From positions 2,929,303-2,993,302 of the forward strand of contig NZ_OY761553.1 of the NCBI RefSeq assembly GCF_963664735.1: a stretch of DNA of 64,000 nucleotides, written 5' to 3'. Origin of the DNA: an uncultured Cohaesibacter sp. (GTDB taxonomy: Bacteria; Pseudomonadota; Alphaproteobacteria; Rhizobiales; Cohaesibacteraceae). Position 1 is the first letter of the stretch. Every line of letters begins with the position of its first letter. Shown here piece by piece: positions 7,087-60,950 of the stretch. The notes under the pieces were generated by a model, which had not been told where the DNA came from, ran no database searches, and saw nothing but the letters and a program-made list of their open reading frames with translations. The translations under genes were made by a program, and so were the position numbers.

Positions 7087-8289
7087 TTAGGCAGACAGAA
7101 TGTTCACGGAATGCTGCGCGATCATGAATTCTTCGTCCGTAGGAATAACCATAACAGGAACGGAGCCCTCAGCAGAAATCAGCTCAACGCCGCGGGTGTC
7201 ATTTTTGGCAGCATCGAGTTTGATGCCCATGAAGGCAAGATCGGCACAGACTTTATCGCGAATGATCGGGCCGTTTTCGCCAATACCAGCAGTGAAGACA
7301 AGCGCATCAATTCCGCCGAGAGCAACGGCAAGAGACGCAATCTGCTTAGCCGTACGCTGACAGAAGATATCCAGAGCAAGAACTGCGCCCGGAGCTTCGT
7401 TTTCTTCGATTTCGCGCATGTCGTTTGCGATGTCGGAAATGCCCAGAAGACCACATTTGTAGTAGAGCATCTTTTCAAGATCATCGACGCTCATGTTGTA
7501 TTCGCGCATCAGATAGATGAGAACGCCCGGATCCATGCTGCCCGGACGAGTACCCATCGGAATACCGTCAAGTGCAGAGAAGCCCATGGAGGTGTCAATG
7601 CTGACGCCATCCTGCAAGGCTGCCAAGCTGGCGCCGCTGCCAAGGTGAGCAACCACGACTTTGCCTTTTGCAAGGTCAGGTTTGTTCTGGCGCAGATTGT
7701 AGGCGATATATTCGTAAGAAAGACCGTGGAAGCCATAGCGGGTTACGCCAGCGTCGGTATATTCTTTCGGAATCGCAAAGGTGGCATTGACGGCAGGAAT
7801 GGTGCGGTGGAATGCCGTGTCAAAGCAAGCAATCTGTGGCAGATCCGGACGGCTGGTAGCAAGCGTCTTGATAGCTGCAACATTCTGTGGCTGATGCAAA
7901 GGAGCAAGAGGAGCCAGGCTTGCGAGCTTTTCAATGATTTCAGCATTAATGAGCACTGGCTTGTCAAAGTCTTCGCCACCATGCACAACGCGGTGACCAG
8001 CTCCGATCAATGGCAGATCTGCTGGCAATTTGCTTTCAATCCACTCTAGCAGATGTGGCAAAATCGCAGGAACAGTGCCCTGATCCAGATGTTCCCATGA
8101 ATCATCGGCCAGCAACTCCTTGGTTGCCGTTTTCACTTTCAGATGAGCCGCCGTTCCGATGCCGTCAAGCTGGCCACCGAAAAACAGAGCAATCTTGTTG
8201 TCTGCGTCGCCTACCTGAAATACCGTGAATTTCACGCTTGAAGATCCACTATTGAGGACCAGCAATGCGCCTTTTTTAATATCTGTCAT
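7087..8289 (-). CDS. ackA: Acetate kinase
   Basis: 400 residues, the standard length. It interconverts acetyl phosphate + ADP with acetate + ATP. The ASKHA-fold motifs are present: LNSGSSSVKF near residues 12-21, GHRVVHGGEDF with the substrate-binding arginine and histidine, HLGSGASLAA (phosphate 2 loop), and FTAGIGENGP near the C-terminus. It lies 36 bp after the MaoC-phosphotransacetylase gene and is clearly co-transcribed with it, giving a complete acetyl-CoA to acetate route for substrate-level ATP formation or for acetate and acetyl-phosphate handling. Confidence 0.97.
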   Translation of the reverse strand: MTDIKKGALLVLNSGSSSVKFTVFQVGDADNKIALFFGGQLDGIGTAAHLKVKTATKELLADDSWEHLDQGTVPAILPHLLEWIESKLPADLPLIGAGHRVVHGGEDFDKPVLINAEIIEKLASLAPLAPLHQPQNVAAIKTLATSRPDLPQIACFDTAFHRTIPAVNATFAIPKEYTDAGVTRYGFHGLSYEYIAYNLRQNKPDLAKGKVVVAHLGSGASLAALQDGVSIDTSMGFSALDGIPMGTRPGSMDPGVLIYLMREYNMSVDDLEKMLYYKCGLLGISDIANDMREIEENEAPGAVLALDIFCQRTAKQIASLAVALGGIDALVFTAGIGENGPIIRDKVCADLAFMGIKLDAAKNDTRGVELISAEGSVPVMVIPTDEEFMIAQHSVNILSA

Positions 8290-8325
8290 TGTTTCTTTTC
8301 TTTCTATTCAAACTAATTTGCCCGA

Positions 8326-9738
8326 CTAATTGTTTGCCAACAAAACAGCCAGAGCGCATGAAGCAAGGCGCGCTGACAAACTGTCAGCACGACTGGTCAG
8401 AATAACCGGGACAGCAGCGCCCAACACGATGCCTGCGGCATCGGCATGAGCAAGAAATGATAACTGCTTGACCAGCATATTGGCGGATGCAAGATCCGGA
8501 GCAAGAAGAATGTCCGGATCACCAGCAACCTCGGATTTGATGCCCTTGGTCAATGCAGCTTCCTTGGAAATTGCATTGTCGAAAGCCAAAGGACCGTCAA
8601 CGATAGCACCCTTGATTTGACCGCGCTCAGCCATTTTGCAAAGAACGGCAGCATCAACGGTGGAAATGATTTTGGGATTGATTGTCTCAACAGCGGACAA
8701 AATACCGACTTTCGGTCTCGCAACCCCAAGAATATTGGCAAGACCGACCGCGTTTTGAATGATATGGGCTTTGTCATCAACATTGGGAAATATATTCACC
8801 ACCCCGTCCGTGATGAGCAACGGCTTGGGATAGGTTGGAACGCTCATGACAAACACATGGCTAACGCGCCGATTGGTGCGCAATCCGCCATCCCGTCTGA
8901 CCACCGCACCCATCAGAGCATCTGTATGAAGGGAACCTTTCATCACGGCCCCCACTTCACCTGCTTTGGCCAAGGCCACTCCCTTGGCTGCAGCGTCGCT
9001 TTCATGACGCGCATTGACAAGGCGGAAAGATGAAATGTCCAAACCGTGCTCACTGGCCAATGCACTGATCGTGTCCTGAGGCCCCACCAAAACCGGATCA
9101 ATCAGACCGAGGCGCGCTCCCTCGCAGGCGCATTCCAACGCGGTTTTATCACACGGAAAAATGATTGCCGTCGGCAGAACGTCCAGATTCTTGCATTTTT
9201 CGATCAGCATATTCAGCTGCTCATGCGCAATGACTTGCAACTCAGGAAGATTGTGCCCTTGCTGATCACAGCGGACTTTGGGCGGAATAACGGTCGCCAT
9301 CCCTTCAACGAGCGGCTTTCCTTGTCCATCGACCAGAGAACAAGCAAACAGAACGAGCTTCTTGCCACTTCTGGATAGCTTTTTGGATGCAACGGTTACG
9401 GTCGCCGTAACGCTCTCCCCGAGTGGAATCGGAGACAAGAATTTGAGATTCTGCTTGCGATAGATGGTCCCGGGCCCGGGCAGTCGCGTGCCAAGCAAAC
9501 CGGAGAACAGCGCTCCAGCCCACATGCCATAGCCCATGGGTTGGTTGGCTCCTCCATTGTCAGAAGTCGCGGGAAAATGAAGTGGATCAACGTTGCCAGA
9601 TACCGTTGCAAACAGATTGATATCTGTAAGCGACAGATTCCGGGTTACGCTGGCACACTGGCCGATCACCAAATCCTCATAAGTGAGGCTGGTAAGCTTT
9701 GTGATCGGTTTATGGAGTGCAGAGGGGAGGACGGTCAT
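8326..9738 (-). CDS. pta: Bifunctional MaoC-like hydratase / phosphate acetyltransferase
   Basis: 470 residues with two parts. Residues 1-150 are a MaoC-like hot-dog domain (YGMWAGALFSGLLGTRLPGPG segment, here YGMWAGALFSGLLGT; FLSPIPLGESVTATVTV). Residues 160-470 are a phosphate acetyl/butyryl-transferase domain (SAVETINPKIISTVDAAVLC and VLLAPDLASANMLVKQL segments). The enzyme would transfer an acyl group between CoA and phosphate. The role of the MaoC part in this fusion is not settled; annotation pipelines call the fusion enoyl-CoA hydratase/phosphate acetyltransferase. GAGAG precedes the ATG. It is the first gene of the pta-ackA pair. Confidence 0.93.
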   Translation of the reverse strand: MTVLPSALHKPITKLTSLTYEDLVIGQCASVTRNLSLTDINLFATVSGNVDPLHFPATSDNGGANQPMGYGMWAGALFSGLLGTRLPGPGTIYRKQNLKFLSPIPLGESVTATVTVASKKLSRSGKKLVLFACSLVDGQGKPLVEGMATVIPPKVRCDQQGHNLPELQVIAHEQLNMLIEKCKNLDVLPTAIIFPCDKTALECACEGARLGLIDPVLVGPQDTISALASEHGLDISSFRLVNARHESDAAAKGVALAKAGEVGAVMKGSLHTDALMGAVVRRDGGLRTNRRVSHVFVMSVPTYPKPLLITDGVVNIFPNVDDKAHIIQNAVGLANILGVARPKVGILSAVETINPKIISTVDAAVLCKMAERGQIKGAIVDGPLAFDNAISKEAALTKGIKSEVAGDPDILLAPDLASANMLVKQLSFLAHADAAGIVLGAAVPVILTSRADSLSARLASCALAVLLANN

Positions 9739-12125: not shown

Positions 12126-12685
12126 CTATCGTACCATTCACGTTCAATAATTAGGTGCAGCTCTGCTAGTCCCGAGGACATCCGGCTGATTTCGAGGAAA
12201 GCTGCCAGAGGGTCACTTAAACACCTGCGTCATGACATTTTTTTGTCGCGTGTTCAATTTCATATTACTGACTTGCCATAGCAAACCCGCTCGCTAGTGG
12301 CTTTCGCGCACTTGTGCGCTGGATGAAAGCCCTTCTGCCAGCTTGCGGACAATGAGTTCCTAGAAGGGAAATTAGTCCACAAAATGGTAGGGGTCTCCCT
12401 TTTTCTACCATTTCATTTCGTGCCTTTCCCTTCGGTGCACAGCTTTGTAGTCTGCGACCTCATTGCAAAAAAACTCGATTGCTTGACGCACAGCCGTCTA
12501 TTTCAACATGTTAGCAGACTGAAACTTATTATTTTTTTGATTGGCTCACTTTCTTTTGACACACATGTTAGTTAGATGTTAATCAAATATTTTTCGTAAG
12601 CAGTTGAATTACACACCAACAACAAGCTACGGTAGAAAAAGCCATTGGACCGGCTGGCAACATGGCCTAACCTACAGGGAAAACA
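12126..12685. other. Divergent promoter region between ugd and the GntR gene
   Basis: About 560 bp between divergent genes, without a convincing gene. The part before the GntR gene (12520-12670) is AT-rich and probably holds its promoter. No operator was recognised with confidence. Confidence 0.4.
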
Positions 12686-13327
12686 ATGCTAAAACGTGCC
12701 GCCTATGAACGTATTGTAGAGTTTCTTGACCAGGGAGCTCTTGCTCCAGGGCAAATGGTTTCACAACGAGAGCTCGTTGAAATGACAGGCTCAACGCTTG
12801 GCTCGATACGCGAAGCCATTCCGCGCTTGGAGGCGGATGGATTGCTGCAAACCTTGCCAAAGCGAGGACTAATGGTTCCTGCGCTTGATGTTTCTTTTGT
12901 GCGGGATGCTTATGAATTGCGCCGAATTCTGGAGTTAAGTGCCGTCAGCTCGGCCATAGAGCGCGTCCCCAATGAAACCATATGCAATTGGATCAAACAG
13001 CACGAAAGCTTTCTTGCTCTGATTCAGGATAATTCCGATCCCGACGCCGCCAATGAAATGCAGAAACTGGACTGGGAGCTTCACGCGGCCTTTATTGGAA
13101 GTATGCAGAATGCCCTGATTTCCAATGTCTACCGCGTCAACTCGGTCAAAATCCACATGGTCGTGCAATCCAGACTACAGGTCACGCCGTTTAATGCCGA
13201 GCGTATCGTCGGCGAACATCTGGCCTTTTTGCTTCCAATGCGAGATGGCGATACGAAAGCCGCAGAAAAAGGATTGGCGCAGCATATCAATAATTCGCTG
13301 CGTTTGGCCCTTGGGGAACAGCTCTAG
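12686..13327 (+). CDS. GntR-family regulator, FCD subfamily
   Basis: 213 residues with AGGGA just before the ATG. A winged helix-turn-helix lies about residues 5-70 (VSQRELVEMTGSTLGSIREAIPRL, with the recognition helix at TGSTLGSIREA). A C-terminal all-helical FCD ligand domain is about 75-205; its conserved D and H positions (LDWELHAAF, GEHLAFL) usually bind a metal and a carboxylic ligand. The gene is followed by an XRE-cupin regulator in the same direction, and both converge on the GRE-activase operon, so they are candidates for its control. Confidence 0.88.
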   Translation: MLKRAAYERIVEFLDQGALAPGQMVSQRELVEMTGSTLGSIREAIPRLEADGLLQTLPKRGLMVPALDVSFVRDAYELRRILELSAVSSAIERVPNETICNWIKQHESFLALIQDNSDPDAANEMQKLDWELHAAFIGSMQNALISNVYRVNSVKIHMVVQSRLQVTPFNAERIVGEHLAFLLPMRDGDTKAAEKGLAQHINNSLRLALGEQL

Positions 13328-13412
13328 GCGGGGGCTTCGCCTCAATTCCTGTGGCGCATGGTCTTTCTTTGCGATATTGGATGGGCTGAAGTCGAGAGAT
13401 CAGGTTTTAAGC

Positions 13413-13943
13413 GTGACTGAAAACAATTTCAAGCAAACCGTTGCTGCCCATCTCAAAGCCATTAGAAGCCAACGCAAGCTTAGCCTCGACGACGTGGCCA
13501 AGCTTACAGGCGTCTCGAAGGCTATGCTTGGTCAGATCGAAAGGGAAGAATCGAGCCCAACCATTGCCAAGCTCTGGCAAATTGCGACGGGACTGGAAAC
13601 CTCCTTCTCGGCTTTTCTTGATCAGACATCGGATCCACAAGCCAGCCCGGCCTTTCCCAATGACCCGAACATGTCAATGCGGCCTATCTTTGCTTACAGC
13701 AAGGCAGTGAATTTCGAGATCCACGAAATCACTTTAACCAATCATCATTGCCAGCTTTCCGAGCCACATGCCCACGGGGTCATCGAAAGCGTAATCGTTC
13801 TTGAGGGAGAGCTTGAGATCCTGTCTGACGGACATTGGCAAGCGATTTCCAAAGGCGAGGCGTTCCGCTTTTTTGCCGACCAACCCCATGGCTATCGCGC
13901 CGCCAGCGAACGGGCCGTGTTCCAGAATATAGTCAGCTACTGA
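13413..13943 (+). CDS. XRE-family regulator with C-terminal cupin domain
   Basis: 176 residues from GTG 13413. The open frame extends to 13125 inside the GntR gene, but residues before this GTG have no domain character. A lambda-type HTH lies about residues 8-62 (LSLDDVAKLTGVSKAMLGQIE). A small cupin barrel follows about 100-170 (EPHAHGVIESVIVLEGELEI-type motif, seen as SEPHAHGVIESVIVLEGE). Such proteins sense a small ligand through the cupin. The gene lies 85 bp after the GntR gene and ends 14 bp from the opposing activase gene. Confidence 0.85.
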   Translation: MTENNFKQTVAAHLKAIRSQRKLSLDDVAKLTGVSKAMLGQIEREESSPTIAKLWQIATGLETSFSAFLDQTSDPQASPAFPNDPNMSMRPIFAYSKAVNFEIHEITLTNHHCQLSEPHAHGVIESVIVLEGELEILSDGHWQAISKGEAFRFFADQPHGYRAASERAVFQNIVSY

Positions 13944-13957
13944 TTACCCACGACAGA

Positions 13958-14881
13958 TTATCCGGTTGGCGTGATCGGTATGCCATGATTTTTGAAAATG
14001 CGATAGGCCGCCTCCACTTGTGCTCCGGTCGGAGTAGAGAAGGAGCGGAAACGCTCTGTCATGCGAAAGGCACTATATTTGGCCTTGCCCAACTCATGAT
14101 AGGGCAGAAGTTCGATCCCGCTACCGGGGAGATGTTCGCGCATGAACCCAGCGGTTGCCTCAAGGTTGCTATCGGCCAGATTGACTTCCACGATCAGCGG
14201 GATTCGCACAGTCATAGGCACGCCCGCAGCATGAATCCGTTTGGCATTTTGAAGAATGACTTCATTGCCCTGACCGGTAAACTGCCGGTGGGTTTCGCTA
14301 TCCATATGCTTGATGTCAAAGAAGATATGATCAATGCCTGCCATCAGGTCCTGACAGTGGTCCCATTTGAAAAAACCGCAGCTTTCCACCCAGACTGAAA
14401 CACCGAGTTTTTCGCATCCATCCATCAGGCGGCGCAGGAACTGATGTTGCACAAAAGGTTCGCCACCTGAAAAGGTCACCCCGCCACCGGAATGACGAAA
14501 GAAGATCTCGTCTCGCCGGATCTGGTCCATGATGGTGTCGGCATCCATCTCCTCACAGGCAAGCTGCAAAGCCTTTTCAGGACAGGCGGTAACGCACTCG
14601 CCACAGAAGGTGCAAAGGGCGGGGTCGAAATCCCCTGCAGCCGGGTCCAGTCCCTCGGGGCAGATGGATAGGCACGTACGGCAGCCTTTGCACTTATGGG
14701 CATGATAGGCAAGCTTTTTGTGCTGCGTCCAACTCTCGGGATTAGCGCACCATTGGCATCTGAGGCCGCAGCCTGCCAGAAAGATCGTTGTGCGCACCCC
14801 GTCGCCGTCATGAATGGAATAGTCCTGCATTTGCAGGACCGTACCCGTTGTGCGGTCATTAGCCTTGTCAGTAGCTGCCAT
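13958..14881 (-). CDS. Glycyl radical enzyme activase (radical SAM)
   Basis: 307 residues from ATG 14881, which overlaps the end of the GRE gene by 14 bp. The frame is open further upstream, but only as a shadow of that gene. The radical SAM cluster C-x3-C-x2-C is at residues 38, 42 and 45 (GCGLRCQWCANPE). A ferredoxin-like insert has two CxxCxxxC sets (64-74, CKGCRTCLSICP; 90-100, CTFCGECVTACP), as in activases of eliminase or decarboxylase GREs but not in classical PflA. FSGGEPFVQ and FFDIKHMD motifs follow. It would abstract a hydrogen from the GRE glycine to form the stable radical. It works only without oxygen. Confidence 0.93.
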   Translation of the reverse strand: MAATDKANDRTTGTVLQMQDYSIHDGDGVRTTIFLAGCGLRCQWCANPESWTQHKKLAYHAHKCKGCRTCLSICPEGLDPAAGDFDPALCTFCGECVTACPEKALQLACEEMDADTIMDQIRRDEIFFRHSGGGVTFSGGEPFVQHQFLRRLMDGCEKLGVSVWVESCGFFKWDHCQDLMAGIDHIFFDIKHMDSETHRQFTGQGNEVILQNAKRIHAAGVPMTVRIPLIVEVNLADSNLEATAGFMREHLPGSGIELLPYHELGKAKYSAFRMTERFRSFSTPTGAQVEAAYRIFKNHGIPITPTG

Positions 14882-17255
14882 GGGCCGAACGCGCGATGAT
14901 CGCCTCCTGCATTTCCGGAGAGAGATTGACAAACTGGGTGCTGTAGCCAGCCACCCGCACCAGAAGATCCTTGTAATCTTCGGGGTTCTTCTGGGCTTTG
15001 CGCAAGGTTTCCGTCGACAGGGTGTTGAACTGCACATGGAACGCACCCAAAGAGAAATAGGCGCGGATAATGCTGCCCAGATCACGCTTGCCCTTTGGCG
15101 TGCTGACCAGATCTTCGCTTAAGCGCAGATTGAGCAAAGTTCCTCCGGTGTGCACATCGTGGTTCATCTTGGCGCTGGAACGCATCGCCGCCAGCGGGCT
15201 CTTCACATCACTGCCAGCAAAGGGCGAAACACCTTCGGTGATCGGCTTTGTCGCCTTGCGCCCGCACGGAGTGGCGCCAACGATGCGACCAGTCGGGATA
15301 TAGTTGGAAATGCCCATGAAGGCGGAGTTGAAGGGCGAACCGAAATTATCCTTATAGCTGCGGGTCTTGCGATAGTAATAGTTGGCGAGATCCCGCGCGA
15401 TGCCATCGACATAATCGTCGTCATTGCCATATTTAACCACAGCCAACGCCTTGGTACGCAGGGCATCATAGCCTTCCCAGTCGGCATTCATTGCCGCATC
15501 AAGCTCGGCGAGCGTCGCCACCTTGTCCTCAAAAACCAGCTTCTTGATAACAGCCAGCGAATTGGCGACCACGGCAAGGCCGATACCGGTCAGCACTGGA
15601 CCAACATTGTATTTTGCCCCACCCTGAGACAGATCCCTGCCCTCTTCCAGACAATGACCAATGCAGGTGGACAGGAACGGGCGCGGCACCATTTCCGAAT
15701 GGAGCTTCTGGGCAATAACGGTGGAGACCACTGAATGATGAATGAGATTACCCACCTGCTCGAAGGTGGCGTCCTCTATTTCCTGATAGCTGGCATAATC
15801 GGTCAGTGGCTTGGCATCCAGTCCCATCTTCTCACCCGTCAGGCGGCTATTGCCTTCGTTGAGGGCATATTCCATGGCGGCGGCAAAATTGACATTGACC
15901 GCGCTGGTCCACTGGCCCGTCTGGCGGAAATGAGGCACGACACAGCCGCAGTTGTTCCAGTCGCGGGCATCTTCCGGCTCATAGCCAGCCTGCAGCAGCA
16001 TCTGGGTTCCTGCCTGATCGTTATGGATCGCCGGAAAGCCCGTTCCCTTGCTGACAAGGTCGGTTACCGCATAGAGAAATTCGTTCGGGCAATCCGAATG
16101 CACCCGTACACTGAGACCCGGCTGGTGGGTGCGCACTTCGTCGGTTGCTTCAAGGCAGAGATAGGTCAGTTCATTTGTAGCGTCGCTGCCATCGCGCTTC
16201 TTGCCGCCCACGGTCATGTTCTGAAACTGGTTATAGCCGGCGAAATAGCCCGTGGTGTTTTCCGATATGGTCCAGACCCATTCGGAATATTTCAACCAGA
16301 GGGCATGGATCAGCTCCTTGGCTCCAGCCTTATCGAGGCTGCCCTTTTTCATGTCATCGGCATAATAGGGATACATGAACTGGTCAAAACGGCCCGGATT
16401 GAGCGCCAGCGGGTTTTCGGTAATGATGCCGCCCAACTGGACAAACCAGATAAATTGCATCGCTTCATGGAAGCTTTGCGGCGGGAATTCCGGCACGCGG
16501 CGGCAAACTCGGGCAATTTCCATAAGCTCGGTCTTACGAGCGGCTTCCCCTTCTTCATGCGCCATAACCTCGGCAAGATCGGCATAACGGTTTGCGAGTA
16601 AAATGATGGCTTTGGCACTGAGGATCGTCGCCTGATAGAAATGGATGCGGTCAATATCTTCGGCATTGAGATAGTCCAGCGCCGCCAGCTTTTTCTCGGC
16701 ATCTTCAAGGATACCGCGATAGCCTTTTAAAAACAGATGGCCTTCATAGTCCGGCGTGATTTCACCCACGGCCTGACGCCATTTGGAATCATTGTCGATG
16801 ATGCCTGTATCAACGGCAATTTTCGCTGTCGGCTCAGGCAGCTCGGCCAGGAAATGCTCTTCAAGCGACTTGCCGTGCCAATAGGGAAAAATTTCAGAGC
16901 GGACAAAACTGCATTGTTCAGCGGTCATCAGATAGGGGTCTTGCGGGCGGGTCGGGAAAGTGTCCATTTCCTTCTCAACCCATTTCCATGAATATTCCGG
17001 CGTCAGAATGCCGGTGCGGCGAAACTTACCAGCGGTGCCGACGATCAGTTCGTCTTCAAATATGCGCACTTCGAATTGGGAACAGAAATCATAAAAGGCC
17101 TGAGCCCGGCGCAGAATGGTCGGCTTGCCTTCCGTCTTCTTGTGAGACTCCGTGTAGATCTTGGCCCGCTCATAGCAAATCGATGGCCTAGTATTCACAT
17201 AGTTTTGCCGCAAGCGTTCAATGCGGCTCGACACAGCCTTTGCAGTCTCACTCAT
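14868..17255 (-). CDS. Glycyl radical enzyme of unassigned function (PFL-like)
   Basis: 795 residues from ATG 17255. An upstream GTG at 17372 is open in frame but lacks family similarity. The fold is a 10-stranded GRE barrel with a C-terminal glycyl loop, RVAGYSTQFV, in which Gly770 would carry the radical. The active-site cysteine loop is NNCGCVVPHFRQTGQ, with Cys436 and Cys438. Eliminase and decarboxylase GREs normally read GCVE, with the glutamate as base; here that position is valine. PFL has two adjacent cysteines; here they are split by one glycine. It is therefore neither a standard PFL nor a standard CutC/glycerol dehydratase/HypD/IslA type. Substrate unknown. The neighbours (2-hydroxyacid dehydrogenase, sugar transporter, Gfo/Idh) hint at a sugar-derived substrate. 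Confidence 0.9.
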   Translation of the reverse strand: MSETAKAVSSRIERLRQNYVNTRPSICYERAKIYTESHKKTEGKPTILRRAQAFYDFCSQFEVRIFEDELIVGTAGKFRRTGILTPEYSWKWVEKEMDTFPTRPQDPYLMTAEQCSFVRSEIFPYWHGKSLEEHFLAELPEPTAKIAVDTGIIDNDSKWRQAVGEITPDYEGHLFLKGYRGILEDAEKKLAALDYLNAEDIDRIHFYQATILSAKAIILLANRYADLAEVMAHEEGEAARKTELMEIARVCRRVPEFPPQSFHEAMQFIWFVQLGGIITENPLALNPGRFDQFMYPYYADDMKKGSLDKAGAKELIHALWLKYSEWVWTISENTTGYFAGYNQFQNMTVGGKKRDGSDATNELTYLCLEATDEVRTHQPGLSVRVHSDCPNEFLYAVTDLVSKGTGFPAIHNDQAGTQMLLQAGYEPEDARDWNNCGCVVPHFRQTGQWTSAVNVNFAAAMEYALNEGNSRLTGEKMGLDAKPLTDYASYQEIEDATFEQVGNLIHHSVVSTVIAQKLHSEMVPRPFLSTCIGHCLEEGRDLSQGGAKYNVGPVLTGIGLAVVANSLAVIKKLVFEDKVATLAELDAAMNADWEGYDALRTKALAVVKYGNDDDYVDGIARDLANYYYRKTRSYKDNFGSPFNSAFMGISNYIPTGRIVGATPCGRKATKPITEGVSPFAGSDVKSPLAAMRSSAKMNHDVHTGGTLLNLRLSEDLVSTPKGKRDLGSIIRAYFSLGAFHVQFNTLSTETLRKAQKNPEDYKDLLVRVAGYSTQFVNLSPEMQEAIIARSAHGSY

Positions 17256-18717: not shown

Positions 18718-18795
18718 AAATTTGAGGATCATGTCCTCGAAGTCGCCTGACCGGCGAGGAGGCCGGTCAATCAGTTCATGTGGAGGAATATGAAT

Positions 18796-19737
18796 ATGAA
18801 ATTGAGGAAGGCTCTATTAACTGCGGCTGCATTTGCAGTCACAGCTGCACTTGGCAGTTTCCAGGCTCAAGCTGCCGATTATGCTGTTATTCTGAAAACA
18901 CTGGCCAATCCATTCTGGCAAGGTGTCGAAAAGGGCGTCGAAGCCAAAGCCGCAGAGCTTGGTGTTGAAGTCGACGTTTTTGCCTCTCCTTCGGAAGGGG
19001 AAACCCAAGCACAGCTTCAGCTTTTTGAAGACGTGCTGAACCGTGGCTATAAGGGCGTTGGCTTTGCTCCAATCTCTCCGGTAAACCTCGTCCAGCCAGC
19101 AGCCCGCGCTTACAAGGCTGGCATTGCTCTGGTCAATATTGACGAACAGATCGATGTCAAGGCCCTCAAACAGGCTGGCGGCAATATCGAAGCCTTTATT
19201 ACCACAGATAACGTCGCTGTTGGTAAAAAGGGCGCTGGCTTCATCATCGACAAGCTCGGCGCAGAAGGCGGTGAAGTTGCGATTATCGAAGGTCAGGCAG
19301 GTGCAGCTTCAGGCGAAGCACGCAAAGCCGGTGCAACCGCCGCCTTTAAAGCCGCGCCAAACATCAAGATTGTCGCAAGTCAGCCTGCTGACTGGGACCG
19401 GCTGAAGGCCCTTGATGTAGCAACCAACATCATTCAGTCGACGCCAGACCTCAAAGGCTTCTATTGCGCAAACGACACCATGGCACTGGGTGTCCAGCAA
19501 GCCGTCCAGAACGCTGGCAAAGCAGGAAAAATCCTGGTTGTCGGCACCGACGGACAACCTGAAGCAATCAAGTCCGTTGAGGCTGGTCGCCTTTCTGCAA
19601 CCGTTGCTCAGGATCCGGAAAAGCTCGGCTCTGATGGCTTCGGCCTGTTGGTGGACGCCGTCAAGAGCGGCAAGCTGATTGCCAAGGATGCTGATGCAAA
19701 ACAGGTAGCGGTGGATTCTGTCCTGATTACCAAATGA
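18796..19737 (+). CDS. alsB: Sugar ABC transporter substrate-binding protein, D-allose-binding (AlsB)-like
   Basis: 313 residues from ATG 18796, nine bases after GGAGG; in-frame ATGs at 18778 and 18790 are possible. A signal peptide ends near AQA-ADYAV. The mature protein is a periplasmic type I binding fold. Long stretches match my memory of E. coli AlsB, such as YAVILKTLANPFW, VDVFASPSEGETQAQLQLFE, AFITTDNVAVGKKGA and ASQPADWDRLKALDVATN, so a D-allose or D-ribose-like ligand is likely. E. coli partners AlsE and AlsK are not in the window, so the downstream pathway differs. It is the first gene of the transporter alsBAC. Confidence 0.85.
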   Translation: MKLRKALLTAAAFAVTAALGSFQAQAADYAVILKTLANPFWQGVEKGVEAKAAELGVEVDVFASPSEGETQAQLQLFEDVLNRGYKGVGFAPISPVNLVQPAARAYKAGIALVNIDEQIDVKALKQAGGNIEAFITTDNVAVGKKGAGFIIDKLGAEGGEVAIIEGQAGAASGEARKAGATAAFKAAPNIKIVASQPADWDRLKALDVATNIIQSTPDLKGFYCANDTMALGVQQAVQNAGKAGKILVVGTDGQPEAIKSVEAGRLSATVAQDPEKLGSDGFGLLVDAVKSGKLIAKDADAKQVAVDSVLITK

Positions 19738-19747
19738 TCTGTGGTTG

Positions 19748-19771
19748 GCGGGGACCTTCCGGGCTCCCCGC
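19748..19771 (+). terminator. Intra-operon hairpin between alsB and alsA
   Basis: GCGGGGA and TCCCCGC arms with a 10-nt loop follow the alsB stop by about 10 bp, with only a weak T run after. Such hairpins after binding-protein genes commonly stabilise that part of the mRNA or cut back transcription of the ATPase and permease genes. Confidence 0.65.
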
Positions 19772-19804
19772 TCCCAATTTCTCAATCTGGAAAGACCACC
19801 TACC

Positions 19805-21355
19805 ATGACAATCGAAGAAAGATCGGATGCTGCGCCTATCGTCCAGATGCGCGGTATCGAAAAACACTTTGGTGGGATTCGCGCGCTCAAGGGCGTGGAT
19901 CTTGATATTCGCCCCGGCGAAGTCCATGTCATTTTGGGAGAAAACGGCGCTGGCAAATCCACTTTGATGAAAGTGTTATCCGGCATTCACGCTCCAACCA
20001 AGGGTGAAATTATCATCGATGGCGAAAGCCATGAGCATCTTACGCCGATTCAAGCTGCGTCTGCAGGCATATCCATTATTTATCAAGAACTTAGCGTCAT
20101 CAATGAACTCTCTGCCCTAGAGAATCTTTTTGTCGGGCGCATTCCCGTACGCAAGAGCTTTCTGCTGCCGTCCATTGATTGGCCACTGATGAAAAAGCAG
20201 GCCGCAGAGATTCTCGACAAGCTCGGGCTTGATATTGACATCAGCAGACCGGTCGCTCAGCTCCCTATCGCTCACCGCCAGCTTCTGGAAATTGCGAAAT
20301 CGCTGATGGGGCAAGTGCGTGTGCTGGTCATGGATGAGCCGACATCTTCGTTGACCAAGGTCGAAGTGGACAGGCTCTTTACCCTTGTGCGTCAGCTCAA
20401 AGACGAAGGCATGGCGATCCTCTTCATTTCGCACAAGCTTGATGAAGTGCGCATTATCGGGGATCGCTTTACAGTTCTGAAGGATGGCAGCTCCAATGGA
20501 TCTGGCTATATCGCAGACCATACGAATGAAGACCTGATCAAAATGATGGTCGGCCGTGTGGTCAGCCAGAAATTCCTTTCTGAAACGCCAATCGATCGCA
20601 GTGGCGAGCCTGTTCTTTCGGTCAATCATGTTACCTCATCGGACCGCAAGCATGTGCGCGATGTTTCGTTCGAGGTGCATAACGGCGAAGTGTTCGGATT
20701 TGCTGGCCTGATCGGCTCTGGGCGAACCGAGTTGATGAACTGCCTGTTTGGTGCTGATCGGCGCGCAGATGGCTCGATTATCCTCAACGGTAAAGACATC
20801 ACACCCAAATCTCCCCTGCATGCGCTCAAAAGCGGCATGGCCTATATCACTGAAAGCCGTCGACAAACAGGCTTCATGTCGAACTTCACAATTCAGGACA
20901 ATACGGTGATATCGGCGCGCATCAAAGAGACGCCATTCTTCGGCATGATGGGCATCATCAATTCCAAGGCGGACCGCAAGCTGGCCGAAGAGGAGGGCAA
21001 GCGCCTGTCAGTGAAGGCCAGCTCGGTTGATCAACTTGTCTCGGAGCTATCCGGAGGAAACCAGCAGAAAGTCCTGATTGGCAAATGGATGGCAACGCAT
21101 CCTGAGCTGTTTATTTTTGACGAGCCGACACGCGGCATTGATGTGGGTGCCAAGGCCGAAATGTACGCAATCATTCGCCAGTTGGCTCAAGCAGGTAAAG
21201 CAGTCATCGTCGTTTCTTCCGAACTTCCTGAAATTCTCTCGGTTTGCGACCGGATAGCGGTCTTTAGAGAAGGCAGCATTGTCGGGCTGGTCGATGGAGC
21301 GACAGCCAATGAAGAGACGCTTCTACAATATGCAATTGGAGGAATTGCCCAATGA
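19805..21355 (+). CDS. alsA: Sugar ABC transporter ATPase, AlsA-like (two NBDs)
   Basis: 516 residues from ATG 19805; E. coli AlsA has 510. The N-terminal nucleotide-binding domain has GENGAGKSTLMKVLSG (Walker A) and VLVMDEPTSSL (Walker B). The C-terminal domain has the family's usual degenerate P-loop GLIGSGRTELMNCLFG, ELSGGNQQK and FIFDEPTRGIDVGAK. The segment GMAYITESRR between the halves is AlsA-like. It would energise sugar uptake with AlsB and AlsC. The permease start overlaps its stop by ATGA. Confidence 0.9.
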   Translation: MTIEERSDAAPIVQMRGIEKHFGGIRALKGVDLDIRPGEVHVILGENGAGKSTLMKVLSGIHAPTKGEIIIDGESHEHLTPIQAASAGISIIYQELSVINELSALENLFVGRIPVRKSFLLPSIDWPLMKKQAAEILDKLGLDIDISRPVAQLPIAHRQLLEIAKSLMGQVRVLVMDEPTSSLTKVEVDRLFTLVRQLKDEGMAILFISHKLDEVRIIGDRFTVLKDGSSNGSGYIADHTNEDLIKMMVGRVVSQKFLSETPIDRSGEPVLSVNHVTSSDRKHVRDVSFEVHNGEVFGFAGLIGSGRTELMNCLFGADRRADGSIILNGKDITPKSPLHALKSGMAYITESRRQTGFMSNFTIQDNTVISARIKETPFFGMMGIINSKADRKLAEEEGKRLSVKASSVDQLVSELSGGNQQKVLIGKWMATHPELFIFDEPTRGIDVGAKAEMYAIIRQLAQAGKAVIVVSSELPEILSVCDRIAVFREGSIVGLVDGATANEETLLQYAIGGIAQ

Positions 21356-22293
21356 GTCGTATAGAAAAATACTGGGAAAATTACGGCACTCTATGCATTC
21401 TGATCGTTATTCTCGTGCTCTTCAGCTCGCTATCGCCTGAGTATTTTTTGCGAGGAGAAAACTTTGTCCAGATCATTCTGCAAAGTTCCATCACCATTCT
21501 TCAGGCCATTGGCGAATTCTTCCCGATCCTGATTGCTGGTATTGACCTTTCGGTCGGGTCCATATTGGCCTTGACGGGCATCGTGACCGGCAAATTGCTG
21601 GTTGCCGGTGTAGATCCTTTTCTTGCCGTTCTCATCGGCGGTGTTTTGGTGGGGCTGGTTTTGGGAGCCATCAACGGTACGCTGGTCAACTTTACCGGCC
21701 TACATCCCTTCATCATTACCTTGGGCACAAACGCCATTTTCCGTGGTGTCACCCTGATCATCTCCGGTGCCAGCCCTGTATTCGGCTTCCCATACAGCTT
21801 TACCGATACGGTTGCCGGTTCGGTGTTCTTTGTGCCGGTCCCCATTCTCGTGGCTTTGTCCATGGCTCTGATCTTGTGGTGGATGACGAGGCAGACCAGA
21901 TTGGGTCGCAACATCTATGCGGTTGGCGGCAACAAGGAAGCAGCCTTCTTCTCCGGGATCAATGTGAAATTCCATACTCTGGTTGTTTTCATGATTTCAG
22001 GCGTCTGCTCCGGGCTTGCCGGAGTCTTGAGTACGGCCCGTCTTGGCGCGGCAGAACCGGCAGCAGGGACCGGATTTGAAACCTTTGCTATTGCATCGGC
22101 GATTATTGGCGGTACAAGCTTCTTCGGCGGTAAAGGCCGGGTGCCTTCCGTTGTTATCGGAGGCCTCATCATCGGCACGATCAACAACGGCCTGAACCTC
22201 TTGCGCGTACCGACTTTCTACCAGTTGGTTGTTATGGGCGGATTGATCATTGTAGCGGTATCGCTTGATCGACTGATTGGGTCACATCGATAA
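21352..22293 (+). CDS. alsC: Sugar ABC transporter permease, AlsC/RbsC-like
   Basis: 313 residues, nearly all hydrophobic, with about eight to ten membrane helices. BPD_transp_2-type motifs are visible: GIDLSVGSILALTG, HPFIITLGTNAIFRG and GRNIYAVGGNKEAAFFSGI, the last being the coupling region that meets the ATPase. The start overlaps the alsA stop (21352-21355). It forms the channel of the transporter. A LacI regulator follows after 74 bp. Confidence 0.92.
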   Translation: MSRIEKYWENYGTLCILIVILVLFSSLSPEYFLRGENFVQIILQSSITILQAIGEFFPILIAGIDLSVGSILALTGIVTGKLLVAGVDPFLAVLIGGVLVGLVLGAINGTLVNFTGLHPFIITLGTNAIFRGVTLIISGASPVFGFPYSFTDTVAGSVFFVPVPILVALSMALILWWMTRQTRLGRNIYAVGGNKEAAFFSGINVKFHTLVVFMISGVCSGLAGVLSTARLGAAEPAAGTGFETFAIASAIIGGTSFFGGKGRVPSVVIGGLIIGTINNGLNLLRVPTFYQLVVMGGLIIVAVSLDRLIGSHR

Positions 22294-53381: not shown

Positions 53382-54863
53382 TCAGCGCAAACCACTCCAC
53401 GGATCATCAGATCGCACCTTGCCCACTTTTTTAGCGGATTGCTTTTCGAGTGCAGCGATCTGGCGAGCCTTGGCGACCACGGCAGCGGCTTGTGGATCGT
53501 GGGCAACATATTCCTTGCGACTGCCGGAAACGGTCAATTGTCCCGTTGCTGCAAGATAGCTGTAAATGGCGATAACGCTGTCAGCCTGCGAATAGATTTT
53601 CAATTCCTTGGCATCCAGCAGCGAGACTTCGGCGTCCAGAATATCAAGATAAGAGCGTTGTCCGGCCTTCTCTTCCATTTTTATGCCGCGCAAAAGATTG
53701 ATTGCAGCATTAACTTCCGAGGAAGCTTGCTTGACGGAGGCAACCGCAGCCTTGTAGCGCAGGAACTGCTCGCGAGCGCCAGCCTTTATTCTGGCTGCCA
53801 GCGCGTTGGTCTGATGAACCTGCTGGCTTCTGGCAGCCCGAGCCCTTTGCACCTCTGCAAGCCGTGCGCCGCCATCAAACAGTGGCAGACTCAAACGCAA
53901 GGACAGGCTTCGGTCCGACTTGTTGGTTTCCGCGGCGCTTGATGCGACATTCTGGGAGAATTCGCCCGTCAGATCCAGCGTGGGCAGAAATGCGCCCTGC
54001 GCAGATTTCACGGCATAGTCGGCAGCCTTGTCAGTAGCTCTGGACGCTCTCAGATCCGGATGCATGCGGACGGCCTTCTGTTCGGCCTCTTCCGGTGTCT
54101 GGGGCAAGAAGTTCACCGGCATTTGCGGATAGATCAACTCGCCGGGCTTGTAACCAACCAAAGCTTCATAGCGCCCTGACGCGCCGCCAAGGTCTGCATG
54201 AGCCCCTTCCAGAGAGGCTCGGGCACGGAAAAGAAGTGCTTCGGTTTTGGAAAGATCGGTTTTTGTCAACTCGCCAGCACGGATACGGGCTTTCGTTGCT
54301 CTTCTCTGTTTTTCGAGATTGGCCACATGCTGTTGCCGCAAAACGATCATCTGGCGGGCGGCATAGACATCCATATAAGCCTTTACCGCTTCAAGAAGGA
54401 TTTCCCTCTCCCGATTGCGCATCTGATAATAGCCCGATTTCTCTTCATATTTGGCCTTGATCAGATTGTTTCGGGTTTGAAAGCCATTGAAGAGCCGCTG
54501 ACTGGCCTTGATGCCATACTGGCTGGTTCTCGTGCGCTCGGTGTATCCGACTTTGAGCTTTTCTTCGACCATTGACTGGGCGGCGTAAGCGCTGACCTGC
54601 GGCATAAAGGCTGAATTGGCCTTTTGCGTCAGAGCTTTCTTCACTTCCAGCCCGGCTTCTTCGGCCTGAATATCGGGGTTGTTGTCATAAACGTCATAGA
54701 GCATCTGTGCCAGATTATCCGCCCGGACAGGTGCCGCCACAAAAGAAACACTGGCCAGAAGCATTGCCCCGGCAAGCAAATTGCATGCCCGCATCGTCAT
54801 CGAAGGCGCACTTGCGCCATCATTGACTTCTTCTGCCCGTACCCGGTTGCTTCTGCTACACAT
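53382..54863 (-). CDS. TolC-family type I secretion outer-membrane protein
   Basis: 493 residues from ATG 54863. The start is uncertain: ATGs at 54800 and 54794 would give a cleaner signal peptide (MRACNLLAGAMLLASVSFVA). The mature chain has alternating coiled coils and amphipathic strands with two OEP repeats. It would form the outer-membrane channel for substrate passed by the HlyD-type adaptor. The tail has a short positively charged C-terminus. Gene order tolC-hlyD-ABC-ABC reads outward on the minus strand. Confidence 0.9.
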   Translation of the reverse strand: MCSRSNRVRAEEVNDGASAPSMTMRACNLLAGAMLLASVSFVAAPVRADNLAQMLYDVYDNNPDIQAEEAGLEVKKALTQKANSAFMPQVSAYAAQSMVEEKLKVGYTERTRTSQYGIKASQRLFNGFQTRNNLIKAKYEEKSGYYQMRNREREILLEAVKAYMDVYAARQMIVLRQQHVANLEKQRRATKARIRAGELTKTDLSKTEALLFRARASLEGAHADLGGASGRYEALVGYKPGELIYPQMPVNFLPQTPEEAEQKAVRMHPDLRASRATDKAADYAVKSAQGAFLPTLDLTGEFSQNVASSAAETNKSDRSLSLRLSLPLFDGGARLAEVQRARAARSQQVHQTNALAARIKAGAREQFLRYKAAVASVKQASSEVNAAINLLRGIKMEEKAGQRSYLDILDAEVSLLDAKELKIYSQADSVIAIYSYLAATGQLTVSGSRKEYVAHDPQAAAVVAKARQIAALEKQSAKKVGKVRSDDPWSGLR

Positions 54864-55061
54864 AACTGTTTATTCCAGCCTAGAGGACGGAATCGTCCAA
54901 TTCGCTTTCACGATCTACCTCGTTACAGTTTTAGAAAATTATGGTTAACAAAGGGAAAATTCCCGAGTACCTATATAGCTTATCGGTAAAAATAACTATT
55001 CCGCTGGAGTGGTGCAGATGAAACAGGGGCCGATATTAGGATTTTTGCTGATTGTATCGCT

Positions 55062-56396
55062 TTACCGTTCAGAGAAAGCGACATCCATGGACCGATAAAC
55101 CGGTTTAAGCAAATAGCGTGCGAGGGATTTTGATCCTGTGACGATATCAGCCGTCACAACCATACCCGGCAGCACCGGATAAGCCATGCCTTTTCGCTTG
55201 AACTCATTCTGATCGAGCGCAATTTGCACTTTGAAATATGGCTGACCGTTTTCATCCTCGAATGAGCTGGCCGAGACGTTTTTTACATTGCCTTGTAATG
55301 AACCAAACACATAGGGATCAAAGGAAGAAACCGTAACCTTGGCTTCGGCATTCAGTGCGATATGTCCGATATCCTTGGGATTAACGCGCACTTCTGCAAC
55401 AATTTTGCGATCATCCGGCACAATGCGTGCGACGACCTCTCCAGACCGGACAACAGCACCCACCGTATTGATTGGCAGTTCCTGAACGATCCCGTCGGTT
55501 GGCGCAGTCAAGTCCAGGCTGGACACTCGGTCCTGCTGTTTGGTCAGAAGACGGTTGACCTCAGCAAGCTCGCTGGCATTCTTGGTTTTTTCCTTGGCCA
55601 GATCGCTGAATATTTTGGCGCGCGCCTCGTCGAGCTGGATTTGGGCTTCTCTGGCCTGTTCCTTTGTCGTGGAGACCTTGCCATCAAGGGTATAGAGACG
55701 CGAATGCGCTTCTTCCAGTGTCGCTTCCGCCTCAAGCAGTGAGCGCCTGGAGGCATATTGCTGCTTGAACAAGCCACTGAGCATCTCATATTGCTCTTGG
55801 GCAATTTCGGAGCGCTTCACTGCGCTTTTATGTTCGGACAAGGCTGCGCGATATTCGGCTTCCCGTCGCGCCAATTGCGAGGCATATTTGGCAAGTTCAC
55901 GGTTGATGCGCTCTTTTTCGGATGTAAAGAAACGCATCTGGGCATTGGCTACGTCGCTATCAAAGTGCGCATCCGCCGCCAGAGAAAGGGTTGGTTCTTC
56001 TTGCAGGAGAGCGTCAAGCGCTGCCACGGACATGCGCAGGGACGCAGACCGAATGGCGAGTTGATCGCGTTCACTTTCCGTAGCCGTTGGACGCAACCGG
56101 ACCAACGGTTGCCCGGCCTTGACCCGATCGCCTTCGCGAACGAGAATCTGATCGATATATCCGCCTTCCAGATGCTGAACCGTCTGCACGGAACCAATGG
56201 GTTGAATCTGCCCGCCAGCATGGGTCACTTCAAGCACGGAAGTGACGAATGCCCACACGATGAACACACCCAGAAACACCAAACAGCCCGTTACCACATA
56301 GGCAAACAGCTGCGGAGGCTGCTCAGCCTCCAGCGCCAGCGGCAGTGTCAATGTCTTGGAATCAAGACCGGTGTTTTTAGACACAAACAACTTCAC
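55062..56396 (-). CDS. HlyD-family type I secretion membrane fusion protein
   Basis: 444 residues. The single membrane anchor is about 33-55 (VTGCLVFLGVFIVWAFVTSV). A lipoyl-like region follows at about 75-110, then long coiled coils about 115-290, and a C-terminal barrel (LPINTVGAVVRSGEVVARIV, VLPGMVVTADIVTGSKSLARYLLKPV) typical of HlyD/LapC adaptors. It joins the inner ABC subunits to TolC. It lies between the tolC and ABC genes, with about 195 bp before the latter. Confidence 0.93.
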   Translation of the reverse strand: MKLFVSKNTGLDSKTLTLPLALEAEQPPQLFAYVVTGCLVFLGVFIVWAFVTSVLEVTHAGGQIQPIGSVQTVQHLEGGYIDQILVREGDRVKAGQPLVRLRPTATESERDQLAIRSASLRMSVAALDALLQEEPTLSLAADAHFDSDVANAQMRFFTSEKERINRELAKYASQLARREAEYRAALSEHKSAVKRSEIAQEQYEMLSGLFKQQYASRRSLLEAEATLEEAHSRLYTLDGKVSTTKEQAREAQIQLDEARAKIFSDLAKEKTKNASELAEVNRLLTKQQDRVSSLDLTAPTDGIVQELPINTVGAVVRSGEVVARIVPDDRKIVAEVRVNPKDIGHIALNAEAKVTVSSFDPYVFGSLQGNVKNVSASSFEDENGQPYFKVQIALDQNEFKRKGMAYPVLPGMVVTADIVTGSKSLARYLLKPVYRSMDVAFSER

Positions 56397-56589
56397 AGAT
56401 TTAAACCCTGAAAAAGCCTTCCCTCGCGAATGAACGATGGATGCAAGGCTCTTTTCATATCACGCTTACCCAGATGAGAGTGATCCCGCGCACTTGCAAC
56501 AAGCGCACGCCACCACACCCGTCTCTACAATAGCTCTTCTAGGGTTAATACATTCTTGCCCAAAAACAGCAACAAATCCGGAATCTTCG

Positions 56590-59142: not shown

Positions 59143-60950
59143 GCGGCACCTCCAAGCGCAGACTTGGCCGCTTCGGCAGGGCTCTGAGCCTGTGCTTTTG
59201 CAGGCAGTGAGGCGGTATCAAGGATCTGTAAACCTCCGTCCTTGAGAATATATTTCTCATCAGCCAGCGACAGGAAGGACGGTCTGTTTGACAGGAAGAC
59301 AATCGTCATACTGCCACGCAACTCTTCCAGCCCCTTGCGCAACAGGGCGTCCGAGCGTTGGTCCAGCAGTCCATTTGCCTCTTCCAAAATGAGAACCTGC
59401 GGTTTTTGGGCAATGGCACGGGCAATGCAGATTCTCTGGCGGAAACTGGGCGGTAAAGCCTCGTTGCCCCCCATACCCAGCGTCATGTCATAGCCATAGG
59501 GCAGCAACTGGATATCATTTTCCAAACCGATCAACTGAGCTGCATATCGCGCTTGCTGCAGCCCTTCCCTCGGATTGAACAGAGTGAGATTTTCAAGAAT
59601 TGTACCGCTGAAGATCGCCGGGCTATTGGGCACATAGGCAATCTCTCTTGCTGTATTTGCAGCGACCAGCGCGTCAAGCGGCTGGCCTCCGATGGTCACA
59701 TGGCCCGCATCCGGCATGACCTTGGCACGTAACATGCGAAGAAAATGATGGTCGTCGCTCACCTCATTGCCCCGAATGCCGATAATGGCTCCGTGGGGAA
59801 TGGTCATCGAAATGTGATAATCAGCAAGTTCATCACCCATACGGGATTTGATGACCACATCCTTCAGCTCGATATCCCCGCTGGACAATTCAATTTTTGG
59901 ATTGATCTTGTTTGGCTCCGGATTGATCGACAGCAATTCATCGACATTCTGTTTGACCAGATCAAAGTTGCTCAGCTCGCTCCAGGAACGAATGGACCGG
60001 ACCAACACTTCCACAGCACGGCCGCCAAGCAAAAGGCAGCAGGCCAGCGAACCGATGGATTGCGTTCCTTCGATCACGAGCAGGGCCCCGCTTGACACGA
60101 TCGTTATCATGGTGATGGAAGCGAAGGATGCGCTGAGCGACTGTGTCGCTCCGTCCAGCTTGACCGAGCGGTGAAACGCAACAGCAATCGACTCTTGCAG
60201 CCTTTCATAACGGCGCATCATTTGGGGCTCGCAGGCCATCGTCTTGATGGCTTCTATGCCGGACAGCGCCTCGATGACAAAGTCATATTTTCTGCGATCC
60301 AGTTGCTGGCGCTCATCCTGCAAATCCTGAATTGCCCTTGCCCGCACAAGCAAGCGCCATGCAAATAGCGAGAAGACGCAGACAAGCAGCCCCGCGATCA
60401 GCGGGCTGACAATCGCCATGACGCCAAGAAAGATGAAAATGAAGGGCAGATCCACCAAGCCCATGCGCGCTGGACCGGCAAACATTCTGGCTGTTACCGA
60501 AAGGGCATTCATACGGTCAATATGGGTACTGGCTGGATTCTTTTCCAAAGCTTCCGGGGTCGCGTTCAAGACGCGCTGGATCGCCTCGACGCCGGAAATA
60601 TAGTCGATATAGGAAGAAGACCATCCTGAAATGTGAGACCGAACGACCTTGAGCAGGGTGTCCACGACCAGCACGACAACCAGACCTGATATCAAATAGA
60701 ACAAAGTGGAGTAGGAATGATTCGGAATGATGCGGTCGTAAATCTGAAGAATGACCAACGGCATCCCAAGACCAAGCATGTTGATGACAAAGGAGGCTGC
60801 CATGATCCGCTTAGGAACACGCACCTGTTCAGCAAACCAGGTGCTTTTCAGGGATTTTGGCGGCTGAAATACGTCATGAAAGCGCAAAACGCCTGCTTTG
60901 AAAGCAGCGATTGGGCCTTTCGATCTTTCAGCCTCGGAACCAGTCGTCAT
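59139..60950 (-). CDS. Type I secretion ABC transporter with non-canonical NBD
   Basis: 603 residues. Six membrane helices about 50-320 (WFAEQVRVPKRIMAASFVINM). The NBD has no P-loop lysine: the Walker A position reads GIRGNEVSDDHHFLRML. The signature is LPPSFRQR instead of LSGGQRQR. Walker B is VLILEEANGLLD, and the H-loop histidine is N (LSNRPSF). The stop overlaps the start of the other ABC gene by ATGA (59139-59142). It is the first gene of the secretion operon and divergent from the giant adhesin. It is expected to form a heterodimer with the 850-residue protein. Confidence 0.87.
   Translation of the reverse strand: MTTGSEAERSKGPIAAFKAGVLRFHDVFQPPKSLKSTWFAEQVRVPKRIMAASFVINMLGLGMPLVILQIYDRIIPNHSYSTLFYLISGLVVVLVVDTLLKVVRSHISGWSSSYIDYISGVEAIQRVLNATPEALEKNPASTHIDRMNALSVTARMFAGPARMGLVDLPFIFIFLGVMAIVSPLIAGLLVCVFSLFAWRLLVRARAIQDLQDERQQLDRRKYDFVIEALSGIEAIKTMACEPQMMRRYERLQESIAVAFHRSVKLDGATQSLSASFASITMITIVSSGALLVIEGTQSIGSLACCLLLGGRAVEVLVRSIRSWSELSNFDLVKQNVDELLSINPEPNKINPKIELSSGDIELKDVVIKSRMGDELADYHISMTIPHGAIIGIRGNEVSDDHHFLRMLRAKVMPDAGHVTIGGQPLDALVAANTAREIAYVPNSPAIFSGTILENLTLFNPREGLQQARYAAQLIGLENDIQLLPYGYDMTLGMGGNEALPPSFRQRICIARAIAQKPQVLILEEANGLLDQRSDALLRKGLEELRGSMTIVFLSNRPSFLSLADEKYILKDGGLQILDTASLPAKAQAQSPAEAAKSALGGAA

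Follow-up and report, generated by a model that had tools for sequence, protein, structure and literature searches.

The DNA analyzed here (the window) is a stretch of 64,000 nucleotides from an uncultured Cohaesibacter sp. (contig NZ_OY761553.1, positions 2,929,303 to 2,993,302), whose genome is a single 4.94-Mb contig. The window carries, on the reverse strand, a gene for an oxygen-sensitive glycyl radical enzyme (GRE) of 795 amino acids (14868..17255; ATG at 17255, TGA at 14868-14870) and, next to it, a gene for a radical SAM activase of 307 amino acids (13958..14881, reverse strand), which begins at an ATG at 14881 and so overlaps the end of the GRE gene by 14 bases. The GRE matches the Pfam families PFL-like (714.6 bits) and Gly_radical (111.3 bits), both over their cut-offs, and scores 679.1 bits with TIGR01774, just over the NCBIfam cut-off of 678.2. 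Its radical loop, RVAGYSTQF, is intact; G770 (in RVAGY; codon at 14946..14948, reverse strand, checked) is the expected glycyl radical site and is invariant in a 34-row alignment. The Cys loop, residues 432-444 (DWNNCGCVVPHFR; 15924..15962, reverse strand), has the order D432-W-N434-N435-C436-G437-C438-V439-V440-P441-H442-F-R444, in which C438 aligns with the catalytic cysteine of CutC (choline trimethylamine-lyase; C489) and HypD (C434), and V440 with the glutamate of their CxE motif (E491 and E436, respectively). A first-pass annotation of the window had read this loop as C436-G-C438 with V440, exactly as the checked codons give it. With a barrel and a radical domain, a catalytic cysteine and an adjacent radical SAM activase, the protein is a member of the GRE superfamily. 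An AlphaFold2 model (mean predicted local distance difference test score, pLDDT, 83.3; predicted template modeling score, pTM, 0.89) has CutC as its top Foldseek match and best solved counterpart (TM score 0.94, 39% identity); such a model speaks to the predicted fold, not to mechanism.

Judged by sequence, the enzyme belongs to a real, discrete and uncharacterized GRE family, a variant within the kind that includes CutC and the N-methylhydroxyproline dehydratases. A scan of contigs retained the best 80 of 178 loci, which are 60-93% identical to the window GRE; the 60% lower limit is partly an artefact of retaining only those 80. Seventy-eight of the loci and the window gave an alignment of 79 full-length members, with the interrupted frames L023 and L046 left out (their loop-spanning parts also read CGCVV). 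All 79 contain D-W-[NS]-N-C-G-C-V (62 DWNN, 17 DWSN), including C436, and all are identical at D156, S157, R160, E165, L283, F338, F344, G437, C438, V440, T450, M647 and I649; H442 is likewise invariant. The scan used six peptide patterns, DWNNCGCV among them, and may thus be biased towards the loop. When 299 genomes were searched with the full-length protein and no motif, some first-look candidates going unscored, four matches came out at 60-67% identity and every further match listed was at 40% or less; it is on this search that the identity gap between 60% and 40% rests. All four carry CGCVV. The DWSN members, too, differ from the scan peptide. Conserved in 79/79, the loop is not a matter of chance, and in the sampled sets the family looks sharply bounded. 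None of the NCBIfam 2026 equivalog models assigns the window GRE a function, solved structures in the PDB reach no more than about 40% identity to it, and a literature search that covered few subscription papers found no report of a CGCVV GRE family.

For comparison outside the family, 100 GREs were aligned and 98 used after two wrong-frame reads (L150 and L207) were dropped; these are sequences rather than independent families, most of them picked for resemblance to the query, and they under-represent pyruvate formate-lyase (PFL; one row) and the X-succinate synthases (none). PFL-type enzymes and X-succinate synthases are likewise not known to carry a CxE glutamate. At position 440 the 98 GREs have E (96), D (1) or S (1, the PFL-like row), and never V. 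The first-pass claim of a CxE glutamate replaced by valine holds, and it extends to all 79 aligned family members. V440, H442, R444, W159, M647 and T773 each occur in 0/98, and 43 positions in total are ≥97% conserved in the family yet present in ≤10% of the other GREs. At position 165, where every family member has glutamate (codon at 16761..16763 in the window, reverse strand), the other GREs have E in five rows, exactly those resembling PDB chain 8id1, D in ten, exactly those of CutC, and H in 70; an acid is missing from the remaining 83. Also conserved in the family are three residues of the first barrel strand, D156, K158 and R160. C436 is present in 8/98. Among outside GREs, a cysteine two residues before the catalytic one is found in L165 and L182 (both DYTPCACTE) and in L212 (DWAPCGCVD, with Asp for Glu).

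The family is monophyletic at full support in three trees (36, 45 and 73 rows). With 36 chosen rows, it forms one branch with CutC and the 8id1-like group (support 99/98), and the same branch is recovered with 73 rows (including 53 other GREs and no PFL-like or HPAD-like row) at 97 in the Shimodaira-Hasegawa-like approximate likelihood ratio test; HypD lies outside it in both. When the long PFL-like and HPAD-like rows are included (45 rows), the family stands beside CutC at 83/87. The trees contained 8id1-like rows, not the PDB chains 8id1 and 8iof themselves, which Foldseek titles N-methyl-cis-4-hydroxy-L- and -D-proline dehydratases, respectively. The first-pass view that the enzyme resembles neither the CxE eliminases nor PFL was therefore overstated, given that the family clusters together with CutC and the 8id1-like group, and the C-G-C taken as its distinguishing feature recurs in 8id1 and 8iof (PCGCVE).

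The window activase is of the ferredoxin-insert type, as had been claimed: it scores 309.5 bits with TIGR02494 (cut-off 174.35; run from 14878), has Fer4 matches, and carries nine cysteines within a 91-residue stretch after CX3CX2C. Across 82 family loci (L001-L080, L216 and L217 included), this Cys-rich insert is present in 40, absent in 33 and unreadable in nine. Mapped by parsimony onto a 70-GRE tree, the trait needs a minimum of six changes, three or more of them forced by well-supported branches. According to PMC11528403, auxiliary clusters whose function is unknown occur in most GRE activases; the same source calls CutD ferredoxin-domain containing. Because CutD is so described and 33/82 family loci do without the insert, the insert is not diagnostic and falls away as a clue to novelty. 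Activases with and without it, serving the same kind of enzyme, are instead a natural experiment on the insert, and with both types in one GRE family the role of the auxiliary clusters becomes directly testable.

On the forward strand, convergent with the activase gene, lie genes for an XRE-cupin regulator (13413..13943, GTG start; HTH_3 and Cupin_2) and a GntR/FCD regulator (12686..13327; GntR and FCD in Pfam). The four genes form a cassette (12674..17236, limits taken from where the DNA alignments end on either side) that aligns to 7/7 Cohaesibacter relatives at 71-82% DNA identity, with no DNA alignment to these relatives outside it within window positions 4001-28000. Among the seven, the GntR-side flank is common to all and the GRE-side flank is of two kinds. 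A family GRE is found in 8/18 genomes of the genus, and when 385 genomes of the class to which the window belongs were searched, E 1e-100 was reached in none but its own. Among the best 80 of 178 loci, the nearest named relatives are Cohaesibacter; the closest species-named relative outside that genus is in Oleispirillum (87%), an alphaproteobacterial metagenome-assembled genome has a copy at 89%, and Anaerotignum has copies at 76-78%. This pattern fits a transferred accessory cassette. Two large replicons of clostridia, recorded as plasmids, also carry copies. The hosts named in the contig scan include many amino-acid fermenters.

Few other genes accompany the GRE. An XRE-cupin homolog lies ≤4.5 kb from it in 49/82 loci, a GntR gene in 6/82 and either in 53/82; in Peptoclostridium a GntR gene is annotated directly upstream of the GRE. 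Clustering of genes within about 10 kb at 81 loci recovered the GRE cluster at 75, the activase at 75 and XRE-cupin at 46 (L003, L004, L048, L053, L056 and L074 gave no neighbor rows, the GRE being lost to another frame). The next neighbors in the fetched flanks are generic ABC transporter ATPases (20/81) and response regulators (13/81), which do not as a rule adjoin the cassette. Pfam was run on 114 of the 131 nearest other neighbors, and the 25 commonest of 109 families were seen, led by GntR/FCD (6), HD (5), metallophosphoesterase (5), MatE (4) and aldo/keto reductase (4); ten and eight neighbors were also scanned one by one. No catabolic enzyme often recurs beside the GRE in the 81 loci clustered and the 114 neighbors classified. 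Genes for diaminopropionate ammonia-lyase, CoA-transferase III, an M20 peptidase, MTHFR and an FAD oxidoreductase are single-locus neighbors that repeat too rarely to guide a choice of substrate, and the neighborhood was rejected for that use. At the Dethiosulfatibacter locus (L034, 8790-10001), the CoA-transferase III gene and the GRE as called share about four bases at the GRE start, and the two may be translationally coupled.

Several other features of the window and its genome were recorded. Genes for a D-allose-type ABC transporter lie at 18778-22293 along with LacI and Gfo/Idh-like genes (forward strand; binding protein 473.5 bits, cut-off 335; permease 513.4, cut-off 396; ATPase 722.5, under its cut-off of 772). 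This cluster and a 2-hydroxyacid dehydrogenase were considered as partners of the GRE and set aside, as they are not beside the cassette in 7/7 Cohaesibacter relatives, the exception being weak ABC and LacI matches at 25-30% identity. At 7087-9738 (reverse strand), an acetate kinase-like open reading frame (ORF; assigned by eye) stands in tandem with a MaoC-phosphotransacetylase fusion (PRK08190, 638.9 bits, cut-off 282); the pair is about 3 kb from the cassette and is not beside it in the seven relatives. Near the window end, two 145-codon ORFs (61856-62293 and 62444-62881), 588 bases apart and identical over their first 70 residues, are a sign of a long repetitive gene, and the ORFs beside them (53382-60950) look by eye like type I secretion. 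Elsewhere the genome encodes a second GRE (L082, 1408-4017; C1:602651) with the loop GCVEPQ, whose best equivalog is (2S)-3-sulfopropanediol dehydratase (681.9 bits, below the cut-off of 1000), and a third (L096) whose ACCVS loop marks it as PFL-like.

In the eliminase structures compared in PMC7077986, HypD included, the CxE glutamate contacts the substrate hydroxyl; for CutC, the diol dehydratases and IslA the same source describes it as the proposed base that deprotonates this hydroxyl, and in HypD as holding the leaving hydroxyl. With V440 in place of this hydroxyl-holding glutamate, the family enzymes would be expected to have no substrate hydroxyl at the Cys loop. Position 165 corresponds to a single substrate-contacting site that a passage of PMC8473560 identifies as IslA Q193, CutC D216 and HypD H160. 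Both known functions in the three-family branch handle N-methylated amines and share an acid there, from which we infer an ammonium substrate, probably N-methylated.

Our preferred reading, which we hold tentatively and rate somewhat short of an even chance, is that the family is an uncharacterized and probably isofunctional member of the branch of CutC and the N-methylhydroxyproline dehydratases, acting on an ammonium-type substrate by C-N (or C-X) cleavage with no hydroxyl at V440. In its favor are the monophyly of the family, the branch that it shares with CutC and the 8id1-like group, the acid at 165, the loss of the hydroxyl-contacting glutamate, the kept counterparts of CutC F389, F395 and T502, the amino-acid fermenters among the hosts and the lack of an often recurring catabolic neighbor. 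The gene, its loop, the clade, the cassette and, in the sampled sets, the limits of the family stand on observation, whereas the substrate class, the roles of the residues and the bond that is broken are inferred. The activase would place the radical on G770, from which it would move to C438, and the C438 thiyl radical would abstract hydrogen from a carbon of the substrate, probably a betaine- or N-methyl-amino-acid-like compound whose nitrogen may be held by E165 at the CutC D216 site. Stabilized via the nitrogen, the substrate radical would then break a C-N (or other C-X) bond, and the proton would be carried by E165, by H442 or by both. No enzyme dedicated to the product would be needed in the cassette; with GRE, activase and XRE-cupin as the main recurring set, none stands out nearby. 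The narrower proposal that a hydroxyl-free betaine or N-methyl amino acid undergoes C-N cleavage via an alpha-amino radical with no Cys-loop acid, which would be a new class of GRE reaction, we consider unlikely, at about one chance in four. The new reaction suggested in the first-pass annotation is plausible, because the glutamate is invariantly gone and no curated model, structure above about 40% identity or, in the literature searched, report was found; the arguments once drawn from C-G-C and the activase do not carry it.

A number of observations weigh against the preferred reading. For many N-methylated compounds that lack a hydroxyl, no redox-neutral radical fragmentation is obvious, and no methylamine, betaine or one-carbon gene recurs nearby (MTHFR in 2 of the 114 neighbors). 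The choline cage of CutC is not kept, as Y208, Y506 and T334 are replaced by S157, N454 and L283. A carboxylate anchor is not established either, because one alignment places HypD R156 at Q/S/N161 and another at R160; R160, once a candidate for this role, was downgraded for that ambiguity of register. The order inside the three-family branch is poorly supported (82/65), a pairing of the family with just the 8id1-like group is neither supported nor rejected (approximately unbiased test, p 0.33 for the rival pairing), and that group is left unplaced in the 45-row tree. The second cysteine is no marker of the branch, since C-G-C (L212) and C-A-C (L165, L182) occur outside it. Finally, the structure model is weak at 338-343 and around 151-160.

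The strongest alternative, still on the unlikely side, is an ordinary, dehydratase-like GRE eliminase acting on a hydroxylated amine, in which E165 or H442 replaces the CxE glutamate as base. It draws on the invariance of both residues (H442 being absent from the other GREs), on the retention of T450, the counterpart of CutC T502, and on the nearest kin of known function, which are eliminases. The refuting condition set in the first-pass annotation, another acid in the base position, is partly borne out: E165, which aligns with CutC D216, is an acid that never varies in the family and occupies a position known to contact substrate, while H442 is a candidate base, invariant and peculiar to the family; either may act as base. 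However, E165 is not simply a moved base, because Glu165 coexists with the CxE glutamate in 8id1 and 8iof, and that glutamate is essential where it has been changed, as passages of two sources report (HypD E436Q inactive, PMC7077986; IslA E470Q inactive, PMC8473560).

An improbable alternative is that this GRE decarboxylates or isomerizes a small amino acid or organic acid. In favor of it, V440 leaves a hydroxyl without its partner, D156, K158 and R160 are conserved, and GntR/FCD regulators often sense organic acids; yet the row taken for HPAD (L098, GCLE; named by length and loop) keeps the glutamate and is distant in the 45-row tree, and R160 may point away from the pocket. Still less credible is a PFL-like C-C lyase or acyl transferase working on a 2-oxo acid with CoA, with C436 as nucleophile and C438 as thiyl radical. 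Two cysteines and no glutamate recall the PFL-like rows (ACCVS), and amino-acid fermenters make many 2-oxo acids, but the window GRE scores 125.2 bits against the 994.2 cut-off of the PFL equivalog TIGR01255, two arginines that the PFL-like row has in the columns of E165 and N454 are replaced by other residues in the family, and the N-methylhydroxyproline dehydratases have C-G-C too. A reversible C436-G-C438 disulfide, acting as redox switch or electron donor in a reductive or redox-regulated GRE, is the least credible of all: C436 is invariant and C-G-C peptides readily form disulfides, but C436 is also found in enzymes titled dehydratases, whose reaction is redox-neutral, and thioredoxin is not among the 25 commonest neighbor families.

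Knowing the reaction would put a name to a step that many anaerobes carry and that has no assignment yet; in a near relative of CutC with an invariant valine, it would also reveal how a GRE of this kind manages without the Cys-loop acid. If hydroxyl-free C-N cleavage were true, gut, sediment and marine anaerobes would have in this family a single-enzyme way into osmolytes or methylated amino acids.

Among known systems, PFL resembles the window GRE in a Cys loop without glutamate and in a second cysteine near the thiyl cysteine; it differs in that its two cysteines are adjacent, not C-G-C, and its activase is not known to have a ferredoxin insert. Against BSS alpha, of the X-succinate synthases, the window GRE has a sequence score of 288.5 bits. 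HypD shares the GRE fold and a radical SAM activase with the family, while E436, D278, S334 and Y450 of HypD are not conserved and its equivalog NF043068 gives 562.4 bits against a cut-off of 1100. A passage of PMC8473560 places HypD R156 and IslA R189 at the same site.

CutC is the closest solved enzyme, and its F389, F395 and T502 are kept as F338, F344 and T450. Its equivalog (TIGR04394) gives the window GRE 728.6 bits against a cut-off of 1050, position 436 is methionine in the ten CutC rows and cysteine in the family, and, unlike CutC, the family has no microcompartment or aldehyde dehydrogenase families among its 25 commonest neighbor families. In the choline-contact set (Y208, D216, E491, T502 and Y506; S157, E165, V440, T450 and N454 in the family), T502 alone is identical, and D216 is matched by another acid, glutamate.

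The N-methyl-cis-4-hydroxyproline dehydratases 8id1 and 8iof (37% and 34% identical to the window GRE, respectively) retain the CxE glutamate, PCGCVE standing against NCGCVV in the family, and the 8id1-like rows differ from the family at 157, 161, 283, 338 and 454. One 8id1-like CGCVE GRE (L153, 2247-11329) stands in line with ORFs read by eye as a nucleoside-type ABC transporter, a deoxyribose-phosphate aldolase and a PfkB/ribokinase-like kinase, a context missing at the other three 8id1-like loci viewed. Shared with the window family are C-G-C (NPCGCVE in 8id1, TPCGCVE in 8iof), W433, Lys at 158 and Glu at 165 (G-E in both), so that C-G-C together with Glu165, a marker of these dehydratases though not a published definition, is found in the window family as well.

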